Assembly (NCBI GenBank): GCA_963930775.1
Contig: OZ005698.1
Span: 6,826,501 to 6,890,500, forward strand
Direction of reading: 5' to 3'
Length of the DNA: 64,000 nucleotides
Origin: Cliona cf. orientalis
Lineage: Eukaryota; Porifera; Demospongiae; Clionaida; Clionaidae
In this document: positions 2,581-49,671 of the stretch, piece after piece
Layout: each line of letters begins with the position of its first letter
How positions within the stretch are numbered: the stretch's first letter is position 1
Made by a program: the position numbers and the translations under genes
Notes under the pieces: model-generated
Told to the model about the DNA's origin: nothing
The model's database searches: none
What the model saw: the letters and a program-made list of their open reading frames with translations, nothing else

Positions 2581-5500
2581 ATGTCTGACCGTGCAGAAGA
2601 TATCAAATTCGAGATAAAAAACATCGTCATTGCCTTGAAGGATGTAATCGCCGAGTGGTATGACCTGGGTATCCACCTAGGTCTGCCAGAATCCATCCTC
2701 AAACTGATAGGCTTCAGTCCAGACATTGAGGGTCGCCTACGAATGATGGTGTCCAAGTGGCTGGACTATGACCCCGAGGCCAGCTGGGACAAGCTGGCAA
2801 ACGCCTTGAACACTATGGGGAAGAATACTATCGCTGCAAACATCAGAAGCAAATATGTACTAAGTAGCCAGATGATCCCTGAAGACTCTCCAGCTCCAGA
2901 CCAGGATGAAACTTCTGCCAAAGCACGTAAGTTTACTGTACTGTTGACATAGCATAAATAAAATTTAATATCATGTGATATCTCCTGGTGATATAAATAG
3001 AGCTTGTTAGGCCACTCCAATTTGATGTACCGTACTCGCTCTAATTATTCGAACATTCTAATAGCCCGAACGGTAAGTTTAAGTAATTTATTTCCTTCCT
3101 AATTCGTCGAACATCTTGAATTTCAAGTTTTCTCATCCACTCTAAATCAACCGAACGGCCACGCAGTATGGCATGGAAGGAGCTTGAGACATCTTTTCCA
3201 CGTTCATCGAAGAGTGTGGCTCCCACATCTCGGACAGCATATAAGAGCGGAAAGGTAATACAGACACAGACGGCGATCATTTTGCGATCACTCCTGAGAG
3301 CACAGCGATACTGAGAATTCTAGAGCTGACGACATTAAACCTATAGCTAGTTGGACATCGACTGCTGTTTCTTCGTCGCTATAATAGTGCTTTCTCCATT
3401 TGCACCGGATCCGTTCTATTTACATTCGAACAAGCCATTGCCCGAATTTATTTATTTTCTATTTAACACCAAACGGCGATATTAATAATTATTTTTGGCC
3501 GTTCGGATAATTAGAGCGAGTACGGTATTGTTTCACGAGTAGGATAGCCAGAAAAGTGAGTCGGTAGGTAGGAATAAATCGATAAACATCATATCATTAT
3601 AAGAATTATGAATTTTATTATTTTTGCTGTTTCCCACTTTGTCCAAAAGTGAGCCAAACGTATCCTCCAGCCCCCGCTTTACTTCAACACTGACCCACAG
3701 CTGATCTGTTATCTCCCACAAGAATTTACATGAAAACTGTGCCGACATTCCTATCACGAGGTGCAGCTAGGTACATGTATATGGCAGCAAATGCGCATGC
3801 GCACTTTTCAAACCACACCCACAAATTTATATTTATGAATCAAATTGGCAAAATATTGAGTTGCTGTACTCGTGAAACAATACATCAAATTGGGGTGGCC
3901 TAATGGATGAGATTAGTCTCATGGGCCAGCCCCTAGCCTCCTATATACCCAGAAAGGGAGAAAGAGTCTGGTCAAAAGGGTTGCACTAATGCATTCAGCT
4001 GGAATGCAATTCTGGTGTGTGTAAAATAGAAACTAACCACCACTTCTTCCGTACCATGTGCATAAGCTGAGCACATGTGTGTAAGTACAGACTGCACATA
4101 ATTACATTATCATATGACCACAGTTTTGCAACCTGATGGGGCCGCAATATACCGTATTTCTTCTAAAAATTCGGCATGAAAATAACAATACAGTCGAGCC
4201 TCCGATAACGGACCCTCCGAGAAGCGGACAACCTCTCTACAGCGGACAAGTGCCGTGTTACCGATTGAATTTAGCATAGTTATAGTACATTAGCAACCTC
4301 CGAGAAGCGGACGCTTCTCGATTCCGGACAGCGGACAAGATCCAAGCTCCCAACGTGACTTTTCAATGCAAAACTGCCTCTAAATAGCGGACATCCGGAA
4401 ACCACGCCCTTAAATTTGCGATGCCGCGCCCACCTTTGTCGCAATCTAGCTGTCGTGATATTATGCTGCATGCGCGATAATAATATTAGCCTTGAATCCA
4501 GATAACGATTTTGGAGTAGCCAGTACTTCAGAAACAAAAAAATTCAGCCTGTGCTATGTTGATACTGAAAACAGAACATACCAACCACTTGATTATCATC
4601 TCTACTGGTCTTATCATGCATTTCAGTGCATAATACAATCAAAATGGGTTGAAAAATCATGAACCTCCGAGATAGGGACAACCTCCGAGCAAAGGACAAG
4701 AGGCCCGTTCCCAAAGCGTCCTTTGTTCGGAGGCTCGACTGTATTGCTTTAGCTTCGCCGAATTTTTAGAGGTTAATATTCAACATTCTGTCTGCGTGCG
4801 CATTCCATTCCCGTTTATAGCATATACACATGACGACCTTTGCTGAAAAATTAGAGACTATATTCAATCATTCGGTAAAGGGTGCCGAATAATTAGAAGG
4901 GCCGAATTTTTAGAAGAAATACGGTAATAATATTATGTACCTTGAGGACAAGGAACCCTTTTGACCAGACCCTTTCTCATGCGTGCATGAAGGGGGCTGG
5001 ACAAGAGACTAGGATGAGATATGAACATAGCATGATGATTTTGTACCTTGTTGATTTCTCTACAGGTCAAGAAATGACTTGCACTGTGCTCCAAAAGATC
5101 AAACGTCAATTTGCATCGCTCCAGGTCGAAGTTAGATCAGCCATGGAAGCTAGACAGGTGAAAGTGAGCGACATTCATCAGTTCTTGGTGTCCTTCTTCC
5201 AGAGTGAATGCTGCATCCCTGAAGCTCCTGACCTCACTAAGCTATTCAACATCGTAACCGAGGCTAAGCTCTGGCGCTACGATCACTACGGACCGCTAAG
5301 AGAGCTCGCTCAAACATTCATACCCGATGAAAACCCTGTACGAAAGCTCGTGAGCAAATACAAGGACCAGCTCTCTGGGTTCTATATTACTACCAAGATT
5401 GTTGATTTCATTGATCTCTCTGATTTTGATGATTCTGAAGACGATTCTGATGCTGATTCTGACTGCGAAGATGACGGTCAACAACCACTTTCACCAAAGG

Positions 5501-10839: not shown

Positions 10840-10848
10840 AGTCTACTT

Positions 10849-10886
10849 TAGTCTCGCAAGATTGAAGGGTGTGGCTTGCGAGACTA
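10849..10886. mobile_element. 38-bp hairpin element with 9-bp target duplication and matching empty site
   Basis: Perfect 12-bp inverted repeats TAGTCTCGCAAG / CTTGCGAGACTA around a 14-nt loop, flanked on both sides by AGTCTACTT (10840..10848 and 10887..10895). The duplicated block at ~27813 has a single AGTCTACTT and no hairpin. The insertion, its limits and the target duplication are therefore visible directly. Confidence 0.88.
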
Positions 10887-11154
10887 AGTCTACTTCTACA
10901 TGCTAATACAAGTAGCCTCCAGGCCAGCTCCTTATGACTTAGCCTCGTACCCAGAAGGGCCTGGGTACGTAGCTACGTCTTTGTGACCAGCTTGCAGTTG
11001 TAGTACCTTCTATCCACAGTCTCTTGGAAATGGTCGTCATTGCCCTGGGCATCAGTCCAAAATCGAGTCCAAATCTCAGTCCACAGTCCAGAGTCCAGGT
11101 TTTACACTTACCCAATTACCTCATAGATTACATCATAGTTGTCATCATTATCTA

Positions 11155-24185: not shown

Positions 24186-26489
24186 CCCAGCTATTTTGGC
24201 AAATCCAGTAGTCTTCTCCATTCATAGATCCATAGCCAACAACTAACATGGCATGGTCTAACCTTTCACCCGAGCACAGAGGGTCGTAATACACTCCATT
24301 TTGATAGGTCTGGAAACTCGTACGACTACCATTGATACCAATGGCAATGGGATTCTTAGCAACAGCCTCTGCAAGGGCTTGTTCATCCCCTACTGGCTCA
24401 ACCCACCTTCCACCACTAACGGGGAGCTCCACTTTGTACTTATCACTAGCACAAGTGTTATTCTCCGACTTATAATCTTCACCAGCAAGTCCTCCGAGCT
24501 TTGCTACACAGTCATAGGCAGATACATTCCACTGACTGCAGTCACAACAGTCAACAAACTCATTGATACTGGCATTTTTGAACTTTCCAGTTTTCACAGC
24601 CCACAGTGATTCAATTGACTGCGTAACGACGATGGCTGCAACTCGATCATTGGCTCCTTGATTGTATACCACTGGGACAGCACCTTTCTTACGCCAGTCA
24701 ATTGAATCAGGAACGTCAGCTCTGTTGCTGAAGACTTTGGATGGACCAATATAACTGTTCCATTTGCTTGGGATCTGAAGTGGACTCTTAGGAAGATCTT
24801 CAGTGCTCTATAGTACAGTATCATACATCCATAATAATTATTACTGATTACTGTAGAGTGACGATATTTGCAGGCATTTGTTTGGCAGTTCGCTCTACCG
24901 GGGTAATATCAGTTTTTGTGATATGATAATATTATATATCGTATAGCAGGAAACTTTGGCGAGCACTGATTAAATTTGGCGAATCAGTCATCCGAATGCA
25001 TTGGCAAATTTTAAAATTTGGCAATTGCGAGCGCTTCCAGATAGTGTATGAAATAACGCTGGCAGGTTTTAAAATTTGGTGATTTTCTAAAAAATTGCCA
25101 ATTCGCCAAGTTAAAAACATCACCAAAATTTCCCAATATACGGTATTCTTAAATTTTAATCTTCAGTAGTATGTGTAGCTCAAGAACTGCGTCCAGCCTG
25201 TCATCATTAGGCATGAAATCTTTGACAATGCCCACTTTCATTGAAACCACACCCACTTTGTGTTAATGATGTTCATAAGTAAGTGCTAGCCTTGTCACCA
25301 GGCTCCTTCAATGCTACATGCAGAAAACAGGAGAGCCTGGGAGGCATAATCACGTGAGTGCAATTGTGCAATCACTTTAAGGATAGAACTGTAAAAAAGT
25401 TATATTTTGAAGGGAGGTACTGGCTTGTCTTTACTCACTTCTTTTTCTTCACGTAGCAATAAAAAAACTGGCACAGGCAAGTGGTAGCTAGATTGTACTA
25501 ATGATACGCCAAAAATAATGATAGAAGGAGCATCAGGCCTGTGAAGCCCGTCTTGTTTCCATTGGCCACTGGCAAAAAGTGGTCAGCCTCCCCCCCCCTA
25601 GTCTCGTGAACCAGACCACTCCCTCCACAGCGCTGGATGTATTGCATCAGAGGAGGTTCGACAGGGTCAAAAGGTCACAATTAGCTAATCACGTGCTCCC
25701 ATATGTTTGCATGGGAGTACTAATTTCTCCGTTGTACCCCAGCTATCTTGCTACGAAAGTGTCTCTATCATGTTTTTCGTCGTGTCTAATACTGGTTCGA
25801 GCCCTGTACCCTTCGTGAACGATTTTCTAGGCTACCATATGGCTGACCTTTGCTACCTTGAACAGCAAGGCAAGCTGCTGTAGTGAGAATGATGGCATAG
25901 AAAAGCCGCCGATTACTTCTAAAATGTCTGTCATCCGCCTTGGAGAAAGCAGCGCCTGTCTCCATGATAAATCAGGACTGTCTAAATTCGGGGTCAAAGT
26001 ACAAGAATGCTCGTTAACGGAGGGTTATTGCTGACCTTTTGACCCTGTCGAACCTCCTCTGGTATTGCATCACCAGCACGTGCTGGTGATGCAATACATC
26101 CAGCGCTGTGGAGGGAGTGGTCTGGTTCACGAGACTACCCCCCCTCCTCCCCCCCCCCCCCCCCCCCCCCCCCCCCCACCCGGAGTTCCTACACCTATGC
26201 CAGAAAATGATAACTTCAGTCAGTGTAGCTGCTAGATAAAATTAAATCACAAATTACTCACCAAATGTGTGAACTTGTTCATTGTCACTGTATATGAAAG
26301 ACCTAGCGAATTGTGATACTTCACAAAATCAGCATTCCTTCTCCAGGTAGGATAAATCTTTTCTAGGTCGTCTCCATTGTAATACTGTGATACCCAATGC
26401 TTGAATTCACCATCATTACTGTAGTCGACACTTTGAGCGTCTATGCTGTAAATCACAGCTAACATTACCAGTAAGATAATGTAATTCAT
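24186..26489 (-). CDS. Cathepsin L-like cysteine protease homologue lacking the catalytic Cys (3' exon not found)
   Basis: Exon 1 (26262..26489) encodes a signal peptide and an inhibitor-type propeptide (YPTWRRNADFVKYHNSLGLS, MNKFTH). Exon 2 (24186..24807), joined in phase, encodes most of a papain-fold domain: DVPDSIDWRKKGAVP, NQGANDRVAAIV, LDHAMLVVGYG and YWICQNSWG. The normal NQGxCGSCWAF active-site loop is replaced, with Val at the catalytic Cys position, while the His and Asn of the triad remain. The CGGCNGG-like segment is also altered. It should therefore be a proteolytically inactive secreted or lysosomal pseudoenzyme. The exon ends at a donor within the NSWG codons, and the usual last ~25 residues are not visible to the left. 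Whether it is expressed or decaying is open. Confidence 0.75.
24936..25145. mobile_element. ACCGTA-type MITE (TATTGGGAAATTTTGG ends)
   Basis: The left ATATCGTATAGCAGGAAACTT matches the inverse of the right end (ATACCGTATATTGGGAAATT). The interior has mirrored AATTTGGCGAAT / TTCGCCAAG words. Lies in the intron of the cathepsin-like gene. Confidence 0.65.
25599..26137. mobile_element. 539-bp foldback of the TAGTCTCG family, C-run flanked
   Basis: Arms begin TAGTCTCGTGAACCAGACCA and are >95% matched for ~75 bp. The right arm holds an extra ~30-bp perfect palindrome (CACCAGCACGTGCTGGTG) absent from the left arm. Flanks are C runs compatible with a 9-bp duplication (CCCCCCCCC / CCCCCCCTC). In the same intron as the 24936 element. 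Confidence 0.75.
26138..26178. repeat. Poly-C tract
   Basis: About 40 bases, almost all C, directly after the foldback element. Length is likely unreliable in assembly. Confidence 0.8.
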
Positions 26490-27020: not shown

Positions 27021-28271
27021 GTTTTTGTGAAACCAACCCTATCAAACATTCCAATGCACAATAATAATTATAGCTGTGTGTATTATTTTTGTTTTCAAAA
27101 ATTTAGAATTAAATAGCCGTTCAAATCAAACAATAACACAGTACAATAATAATTATTGTTGTTGGAAGCAATTAATGGTGCATGGGGGGTGGCCCTAAGT
27201 TAACCTTCCCAGCTTACAGTCCATGAACATTACAATGTCATGCAAAAATAAATTGAAGAACTGAACATGGAATGGACTGGAATAGGTTGCCCCTGACTAC
27301 ATTTAGTTGATATCACGTCGATCAAAAGCTAGAGTCTGTGTAACACAGCAATAGCTAGTTGAGTCTTCTCTGTCTAGTTGGGCTATGGAGTGACTTGGAT
27401 GTATACGTACTTTTTGCACAAGGGTATATACGTCCCCCACCTTGAACTCTGAAAACAGCTTAGGGGCATATCCTCAGCCAACACGAAGGGAAGGATCATG
27501 CATTCTCCACCACTCTGAAGGGTGCACATGGACATCAAGAGGACAGGAGGAGGGGGAGTGGGGGGATAAAAAAATTGACTGCATTTTCATCATCATATTA
27601 TTATTATTTTCGTCAAAATTTCATCATAATTACCTCATCAATTGGCCAAATTGTTCTTTGTTGATTGGGACTTGGGATGTAATTTGGCTACAATTTAGTG
27701 AATTATCAAAACTAATCATTCAGATAGCCTAATTAATTTTTGCCGAGAGCCAGTTCTACGGTGAGGAGATGCTATCCCAGGCTCACCGACTTTCCAAGGG
27801 AAATGTTCACCTGAGTCTACTTCTCTACATGCTAATACAAGTAGCCTCCAGGCCAGCTCCTTATGACTTAGCCTTGTACCCTGAAGGGCCTGGGTACGTA
27901 CGTCTTTGTGACCAGCTTGCAATTGTAGTACATGTATATACCTTCTATCCAGTCTCTTGGAAATGGTCGTCATTGCCCTGGGCATCAGTCCAAAATCGAG
28001 TCCAAATCTCAGTCCACAGTCGCTAGTCCAGAGTCCAGGTTTTGCACTTACCCAATTACCTCATAGATTACATCATAGTTGTCATCATACATTACAACGT
28101 ACATGTAATTACCTCATAACCACAGAAAAGTAATGGGGATGTAATATAATATACAATACATGATTGTATAACAGTACATACCATAAAAATAGAAACCACG
28201 CGCCAAATATATTATCATGATAATAGAATTAAATGAGATATGTGATTTGTACTGTAATTGAGACGTCAACA

Positions 28272-42958: not shown

Positions 42959-44805
42959 ATGGCTCGAGGTGCTTCATGTATTTGGTTTGTATTCGTGCTA
43001 CTCTTGTTGTGTAGCAGTATAAATGGTGACGCTGCACCGCGACCCCCACCGAGCAAGATCATCTCCGCCGTGAGCGATGGAAAAGGTGGATTCAAGATCG
43101 TCAACGGGGCAGCGAGGGGAGCCATCCTCAGAGCCAACTTCACCGATAGGATCAATGCCTCAGGGTAAATCTGATAAGTCTAGGGTTGCATGGGTGTAGA
43201 TAACTTTTCTAGTTGGGGGGGGGGGGGGGGTCTTATGTTTCCATGCCCAATTTTGTGACCACTCCTATTTATTATTGGATTGCTGTGGAGTGGTGTTACA
43301 ATGAGGGAGTGGCTCGTCCCTTTTGGCAAAATGAAAGTATTATACTGAGCCATGCACAGTTTGATAAGCCCTTGATTATACATAGTTTATGGTGAAACAT
43401 CTTGGGGGGGGGGGGGTGGTTGGGGGCTTCAGCCCCCCTAGCCCCCCCCCCCCCCCCCCCCACCAAATTATCTACACCCTTGGGTTGTCGGTGGGTGTGT
43501 TGTAACATGGATCCTTGGTAGCCTCGTCCCCAGGCCACTCATATTTTCTATGCTACATGCAGAATAGTCTCGTGCCCAGCCTGTGTTAAAAGAGGCTGGG
43601 CACAAGACTACATGCAGAAAAGGACTGAGACTCAGTGATAAGCGGCTAGATCCTTTGTATCGGAGGAAACTAGGCATGGACTATTATAATATTATGATAG
43701 TATGGATAGTTTACAGTTATTGTCTTCCATGAGAAATGTAAGGCATTTATGGATTGCATTGGGGAAGTTGGGCGGAGTTTGTGACCATAATAATAGATGA
43801 TATTACGTTTTAATACAGAAAATAGGGATGGGGGTCCTGCTCTGCTGAAAGGGCCTAGGGTACTAAGACCAAATATGTACATAATATTATGCTTGTGGGT
43901 GGAAGTAGGGACTGTCCGAGATTAACATCTAATATTTCATCAGAGTAACGGATATCAACTATTACCAGGCTTCAATTTAGTGCATGTATTCCTGTATGCA
44001 ATGACTTGCTACTATTACGCCATTGAAAGTGTGATATATTCGACTCTACATGACTATGTAGGTGGTCGTATCTACACATAGCCGACGTAAGGAAAACCAT
44101 CCAGAACAAAGGTGTTTTGGACGAGGACGTCGCCTTCCTTGCTGGTCAGATGGAGGCCTACCTCACAGCTCCACTCATTCGCATGCACTGGCAGAACACT
44201 ATGGGAGACTACTGTGCATCACCGTCAGACTACTGCACCAAGCTACAGGACTTTGTCAGCAGGAGTGTGTCATGGATGAGCACTTTGTCATGTGAGTGGA
44301 ATGTATTATACATTGTGGGTAACATCAAGGGCTTATAGACCCCAAAGGGGGACTCTATAAGCCCTTGATATTGTGTTGTATTATACAGCTGCATGTATAT
44401 ATGGGCTGATTGTAGTGTGATTGACTATGTGTGCACAGGGGCGGATCCAGAGGGGGTTCGATGGGCTCGGACGAACCCCCCTTTCTGACTAGCTGTCTAG
44501 TACTTAGCCTGTATAGTAGTGTAAAATCTAGGCTTCATAGAACCCCCATGTCTTTAGCTAGCTACAGTACTAAAGCCTCTGTCTTTAGCTCACCTACTTG
44601 GACGTTTCTTAGTGAATATTTGGTCGATTTGAAATCTTGGAGCACAAGACCTCGAACACGCAATCTAGCGAGAAATGGGTGTGGTCAACGACCAAAGTGG
44701 GCGTGGTTTAAAAATTCGCACGCGCTTTGCACGCATAATGTTAAAGTAAGAACCCCCCTCTGATAAATCCTGGGTCCGCCCCTGGTGCACATGTGTGTTT
44801 TTGAG

Positions 44806-49615: not shown

Positions 49616-49671
49616 TAGCCTCGTACCCAGGCCACTCCCACGTTTTCAATGTTACTGGGTGTACGAGGCTA
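49616..49671. mobile_element. 56-bp hairpin of the TAGCCTCG family
   Basis: Ends TAGCCTCGTACCCAGGC and inverse. Flanks CACTTTTAC / CACTTAAAT agree at 6 of 9. Confidence 0.7.

Follow-up and report, generated by a model that had tools for sequence, protein, structure and literature searches.

A 38-bp hairpin between 9-bp target duplications in the sponge Cliona cf. orientalis and its proposed derivation from a DUF6589-bearing DNA transposon family

Introduction

Miniature inverted-repeat elements (MITEs) depend for their movement on a full-length relative acting in trans. In P elements, aborted gap repair gives rise to excision footprints and to internal deletions. For the P-MITEs of Anopheles, sizes of 205–2,450 bp are reported (PMC1562414). 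Mutator-like elements (MULEs) are reported to have target duplications of 8–11 bp (PMC6446971). Muta1 is reported to duplicate 8–9 bp and, in a yeast test of donors lacking flanking duplications, its excision occasionally left behind up to 13 bp of the terminal repeat (PMC5225508).

Here we describe a 38-bp hairpin in a window of Cliona cf. orientalis DNA (GCA_963930775.1, contig OZ005698.1 (C10), 6826501–6890500), the window being the whole stretch of 64,000 nucleotides that was analysed, and its relatives in the 216,785,154 bases (216.8 Mb) of the genome, held in 149 contigs. As in MITEs, these short units combine terminal repeats and a duplication length like those of a gene-bearing relative with many copies and no coding capacity. 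Unlike the P-MITEs of Anopheles, they measure 22–60 bp, and the ones analysed consist of two ends alone, joined at six junctions that all differ. As in P-element footprints and internal deletions, terminal pieces of both ends are joined, the duplication is intact and the junctions are variable with short overlaps; unlike in P elements, where the duplication is 8 bp, it is 9 bp in the present family, and such terminal-only remnants seem to be very common. The length of 9 bp falls within the 8–11 bp described for MULEs including Phantom/Muta1 and Rehavkus (PMC6446971, PMC5225508). Unlike MULEs, the gene-bearing relatives found here carry the domain DUF6589 and no listed match to the MULE domain PF10551, and their ends begin with TAGTCTCG and are identical over the 30 nt read.

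Results

The initial annotation had described a 38-bp hairpin, made of two 12-bp arms and a 14-nt loop, with the 9-bp sequence AGTCTACTT on each side in one copy of a genomic repeat (copy A), and a second copy (copy C) with one AGTCTACTT and no hairpin. Each part of this description holds at 10840–10895 and at the empty site (Table 1). The hairpin fills 10849–10886 exactly, and its arms reach 13 nt when the T and the A just outside are included. Folded as single-stranded DNA it gives −11.4 kcal/mol (z = −7.25), and none of 200 shuffles was equally stable. The hairpin that adjoins the insertion is probably an older, decayed relative, because the start of its arm recurs in other copies of the repeat.

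Table 1. Positions in the window of the hairpin, its insertion site and related units
Feature	Position	Strand	Basis
1,098-bp relative, one mismatch per 8-bp end, duplication GGATGAGAT	3914..5011	+	Window end-pair scan
Left target-site duplication AGTCTACTT	10840..10848	+	Sequence
Left arm, 12 nt from one transposon end, TAGTCTCGCAAG	10849..10860	+	Sequence, end comparison
Loop of the hairpin, belonging to the terminal repeat of the opposite end, no foreign sequence	10861..10874	+	10859–10886 matches the 28-nt ends of L096 and L084
Right arm CTTGCGAGACTA	10875..10886	+	Sequence
Right target-site duplication AGTCTACTT	10887..10895	+	Sequence
Hairpin with TAGCCTCGTACCCAG-like arm, adjoining the insertion	10936..10979	+	Arm start also in other repeat copies; putative assignment
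174-bp relative, TAGCCTCG ends, duplication AGTTCATAA	20546..20719	+	Window end-pair scan
539-bp relative, identical 28-nt ends	25599..26137	+	C-run flanks, one mismatch
Empty site in repeat copy C, single AGTCTACTT, hairpin absent	27814..27822	+	Alignment with copy A
A second, 46-bp tiny hairpin, one of its 8-bp ends with one mismatch	43565..43610	+	Duplication CATGCAGAA at 43556–43564 and 43611–43619

Copy C lies ~17 kb from copy A in the same host repeat. Eight loci were cut out of the 70 matching stretches listed for this repeat, and copy A was aligned with the seven others (copy C and L003–L008). The hairpin was absent from all seven. Five of them keep a single AGTCTACTT target, in L005 with its last base changed, and in the remaining two the region is partly lost. 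Since none of the seven has the hairpin, the simple reading is that it was inserted into copy A and not deleted from copy C. A precise deletion from copy C, with the hairpin ancestral to both copies, was rejected on account of the same seven copies. The transposon-type insertion claimed for this site is borne out by the 9-bp target duplication together with the empty sites elsewhere.

The window contains 53 end pairs of 20–2,000 bp, and 5 of these had 9-bp flanking repeats with no more than one mismatch; seven shifted offsets each gave 0 of 53, and each of 30 shuffles gave none. These five are the hairpin itself and the relatives of 46, 174, 539 and 1,098 bp in Table 1. The duplication of the 539-bp relative is weak evidence because its flanks are runs of C. 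A further observation concerns the ends themselves: TAGCCTCG stands in place of TAGTCTCG in the 174-bp relative, in the hairpin adjoining the insertion, at 43519 and at 49616–49671, which suggests a sister set of ends.

The initial annotation had made its case depend on further copies with the same ends and 9-bp flanking repeats, and the genome contains them. Units of 20–50 bp (TAGTCTCG-N4..34-CGAGACTA) were found at 231 places and units of 51–111 bp (TAGTCTCG-N35..95-CGAGACTA) at 495, compared with one and four places, respectively, for the identical end patterns read backwards; the counts are of places with exact 8-bp ends, some of them duplicates inside larger repeats. The hairpin-type structure is far beyond chance. 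In the 20–50-bp class we read the first 35 places in contig order (L009–L023, L064–L083). Exact 9-bp direct repeats abut the ends at 14 of these 35 consecutive places, and repeats of 8–10 bp with at most one mismatch at 22, leaving 13 with no recognisable duplication. When left and right flanks were paired across different short sites, 3 of 1,190 pairings gave exact 9-bp repeats and 6 of 1,190 gave 8–10-bp repeats with at most one mismatch; two of the three exact matches must come from L019 and L020, because these two loci have common flanks. Among the first ten places of the 51–111-bp class, four had a duplication and six had none, compared with 0 of 90 mismatched pairings. Perfect 9-bp duplications occurred beside units as small as 22, 25 and 29 bp. 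Of the units read, the smallest to retain an intact duplication was the 22-bp TAGTCTCGTGGGCACGAGACTA, flanked by a perfect 9-bp CTATCAGAC (L101, C1:31637482–31637543), and a 20-bp place (L102) had no 9-bp duplication.

The longer TAGTCTCGCAAGCCACACCC ends were found at 122 and 120 places in the genome (control, 0), and, among the 100 of these 242 places that were listed, nine facing pairs lie 314–335 bp apart, two of the pairs being one locus duplicated. One such element of 327 bp (L096), read whole, has the duplication TGGCTGGCC. Positions 10859–10886 of the window are 100% identical to the 28-nt end of this 327-bp element, to that of a 2,264-bp element and to an element end in L084. Judged by its sequence, the 38-bp hairpin thus consists of 12 nt from one transposon end and 26 nt from the opposite one, fused together. 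Matches to the two ends sum to 40 nt in the 38-nt unit, an overlap of 2 nt.

Six tiny members of this subfamily (38, 43, 45, 50, 51 and 59 bp) have six different junctions. The ends overlap by 1–4 nt at four of these, the other two falling short of full length against the single parent used, and a perfect 9-bp duplication flanks every member except the 45-mer, which has none. The exact 38-mer occurs at one place in the genome, and two more places match it with three mismatches. At the first of these (C13:8708953), three transitions separate the two sequences and the junction is the same, in different surroundings and with no recognisable duplication; at the other the junction differs. Six junctions in six tiny members suggest separate collapses of longer copies, not propagation of a 38-bp unit. 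The propagated, homogeneous short family that characterises a MITE is therefore not what the tiny members form, and the 327-bp form comes closer to it.

Facing end pairs with an intact duplication delimit two longer elements, the 2,264-bp element (TAACGAGAC), whose ends alone were read and whose end matches the 28-nt end of the hairpin exactly, and one of 5,954 bp (GGTAAAGATC, C2:1827276–1833229). Perfect copies of the duplication AATGAGCTT flank another element, of 5,626 bp (C12:5390570–5396195). On its minus strand, the 5,954-bp element has in its middle two stretches that match the Pfam domain PF20231 (DUF6589) with E values of 4.1e-12 and 6e-35, the latter scored after 550 further bases had been read. 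Parts of one DUF6589 gene were read, and the parts of the element that were read match DUF6589 only. The 5,626-bp element encloses a DUF6589 match (E = 2.0e-30) with one stop inside. The two ends of each of these DUF6589 elements are mutually identical over the 30 nt read. The terminal repeats that a MITE has in common with its gene-bearing element are present here in a close, not identical form, the ends of both elements matching that of the hairpin at 25 of the first 27 nt, and the duplication length corresponds as well (9 bp at the hairpin, 10 and 9 bp at the two elements). The initial annotation had called for an autonomous element with the same ends; gene-bearing elements with closely related ends were found, those of the DUF6589 elements differing at 2 of 27 nt.

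A DUF6589 gene lies between paired TAGTCTCG-type ends with a duplication in these two elements, and at two more places one end was seen; single ends in the correct direction lie 2.9 and 3.4 kb from DUF6589 matches on C13 and C11. Searching the genome for DUF6589 gave at least 122 matches (102 of 338 candidates scored), that of the 5,954-bp element included without a stop, and the same domain had no match in any of 14 control genomes. Allowing one mismatch, the longer end TAGTCTCGCAAGCCACACCCCCCAATC was found at 37 places (control, 0). A DUF6589 match lies within 6.5 kb inward of six of the 37 and outward of one; 20,000 trials of random placement averaged 0.15 and reached 3 at most. Two of the six inward-facing places lie in the element that supplied the pattern, and the other four still exceed the random maximum. 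This comparison used 102 of the 122 DUF6589 rows, the omitted 20 being second stretches beside genes that were used, and approximate lengths for three contigs. A sister end type speaks against the association: compared by eye with the 122 DUF6589 matches listed (102 of 338 candidates scored), none of its 34 places had one within 6.5 kb. A candidate full-length element at C2:2975793–2980361 was rejected after all 4,569 bases had been read: its flanks mismatch and its ends come from two elements.

The DUF6589 stretches contain GGD...DWH and DLHMEHLN motifs, which we regard as candidate catalytic regions, and we propose DUF6589 as the putative transposase of the element family. None of 13 candidate stretches in viral contigs was confirmed as a relative of DUF6589, and searches of solved structures gave nothing credible (one match at E = 0.99, otherwise none). 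PF20231 is annotated as a family of unknown function. In the open-access papers searched, the word DUF6589 was absent and the sole paper found for PF20231 was an unrelated optics paper; no title or abstract among the open-access matches listed describes the element family, which may bear other names in repeat databases.

Discussion

Directly seen are the insertion, its 9-bp duplication, the common ends, and DUF6589 in two paired-end elements with duplications. We consider it fairly probable that the hairpin derives from, and retains only the termini of, a cut-and-paste family of DNA transposons with TAGTCTCGCAAGCCACACCC ends, a duplication of about 9 bp (8–10) and a DUF6589 transposase, and that it collapsed after insertion. 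The DUF6589 gene of the 5.6–6.0-kb elements, whose ends are closely related, would encode the transposase, and this enzyme would mobilise the 327-bp and other short copies in trans. A longer copy would have inserted into one copy of the genomic repeat at 10840, duplicating AGTCTACTT, and its entire interior would have been lost, bringing 12 nt of one end together with 26 nt of the other, overlapping by 2 nt. Most likely this loss would have happened at the 10840 site, when a cut was followed by aborted copying or by end joining, or through deletion across the hairpin; the 9-bp duplication would survive such repair. The order of events, with collapse following insertion, is what we infer. For the tiny forms in general, the interior would mostly have been lost once the site had been cut, given that every analysed junction is unique and that end joining commonly involves short overlaps.

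The main alternative, possible in our view but not the expected one, is that the hairpin moved as the 38 bp seen today. The transposase would then need only about the outer 8–12 bp of each end, and terminal-only units of 22–60 bp would be mobile. Such mobility would account for the perfect 9-bp duplications beside units of 22, 25 and 29 bp, and the decayed 38-mer at C13:8708953, with the same junction between other flanks, is explained by movement as 38 bp no less well than by collapse; however, that copy has no duplication, the exact 38-mer was found once in the genome, and the six tiny subfamily members have six junctions. The 32-nt core of a 64-bp hairpin occurs at four places with at most one mismatch (flanks read at one of them), consistent with some mobility of very short forms. 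Yet the identical or near-identical tiny units at L019/L020, L022/L064 and L080/L081 have identical or closely similar flanks, as do those at L089–L091, where an identical 55-bp unit at three places has identical flanks; because of these flanks we read all of them as duplications of larger repeats and rejected them as proof of mobility. It is a more tentative proposal, and a doubtful one, that DUF6589 defines an undescribed superfamily of DNA transposons with 9–10-bp duplications, whose enzyme excises and inserts very short units, some tens of base pairs long, that are just two fused ends, hundreds of the 22–60-bp hairpins being truly mobile.

Collapse of a longer DUF6589-type element also has to be weighed against two readings of other kinds. 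The initial annotation had proposed trans-mobilisation by a Mutator-type enzyme. The gene-bearing elements carry DUF6589 rather than PF10551, the MULE domain, and the proposal is probably wrong; we hold mobilisation by a MULE transposase to be very unlikely. Duplications of 9 bp are typical of MULEs (8–11 bp, PMC6446971), and a search for PF10551 gave at least 58 matches in the genome (150 of 153 candidates scored). On the other side, 30 of these MULE loci were read with ±1.5 kb of flank, and paired ends with a duplication were seen at none; just two of the 30 contain an exact TAGTCTCG or CGAGACTA, and the two gene-bearing elements found carry DUF6589. Among the PF10551 matches listed (150 of 153 candidates scored), none lies in C2:1827276–1833229 or C12:5390570–5396195. 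A profile comparison of ten MULE proteins with a DUF6589 stretch gave no match, a single short sequence being a weak query, and DUF6589 could be a remote relative of MULEs by fold. Because the protein fails the Mutator criterion by sequence, we do not file the element family under Mutator. The other reading, hardly credible here, has a polymerase that switched template or slipped, making the hairpin and a short flanking repeat with no transposon involved. AGTCT is indeed present in both the 9-bp repeat and the hairpin end, but such an event is contradicted by the recurrence of the hairpin's 8-bp ends at hundreds of places, by 9-bp flanking repeats that differ between the sites read, and by longer elements with the same 28-nt end.

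With the elements described here, a protein family of unknown function gains a testable role as a transposase, in what is an abundant transposon family with a probable new transposase. The data suggest that transposons in one genome shrank to their bare ends many times with the insertion scars kept. Terminal-only remnants resemble random hairpins and are easily missed. Mobility of bare ends bears on the minimum DNA that a transposase needs; if true, mobile units of 22–60 bp would be, to our knowledge, the smallest in any nuclear genome.

Several minor observations were made at the MULE loci. At L043:3110, an element that starts with TAGTCTCGCGGCGCCGCCCC begins exactly where 99% similarity between two MULE copies ends, and it is probably an insertion into a MULE copy. 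By eye, 31 of the 58 listed PF10551 matches lie on contig C1 (37.5 Mb, ~17% of the genome), where DUF6589 matches also seem frequent. MULE-domain frames of 1,022 aa are present at three places (L057, L058 and L059); the first two share 99.6% identity across 3.3 kb, and because of this a Mutator-like element was probably active recently. At L041:616–2028 and L047:448–2010, an ALS2CR8 domain is joined to a MULE/ZSWIM RNase H-like domain, and such proteins are perhaps the source, or a relative, of the host genes so named.
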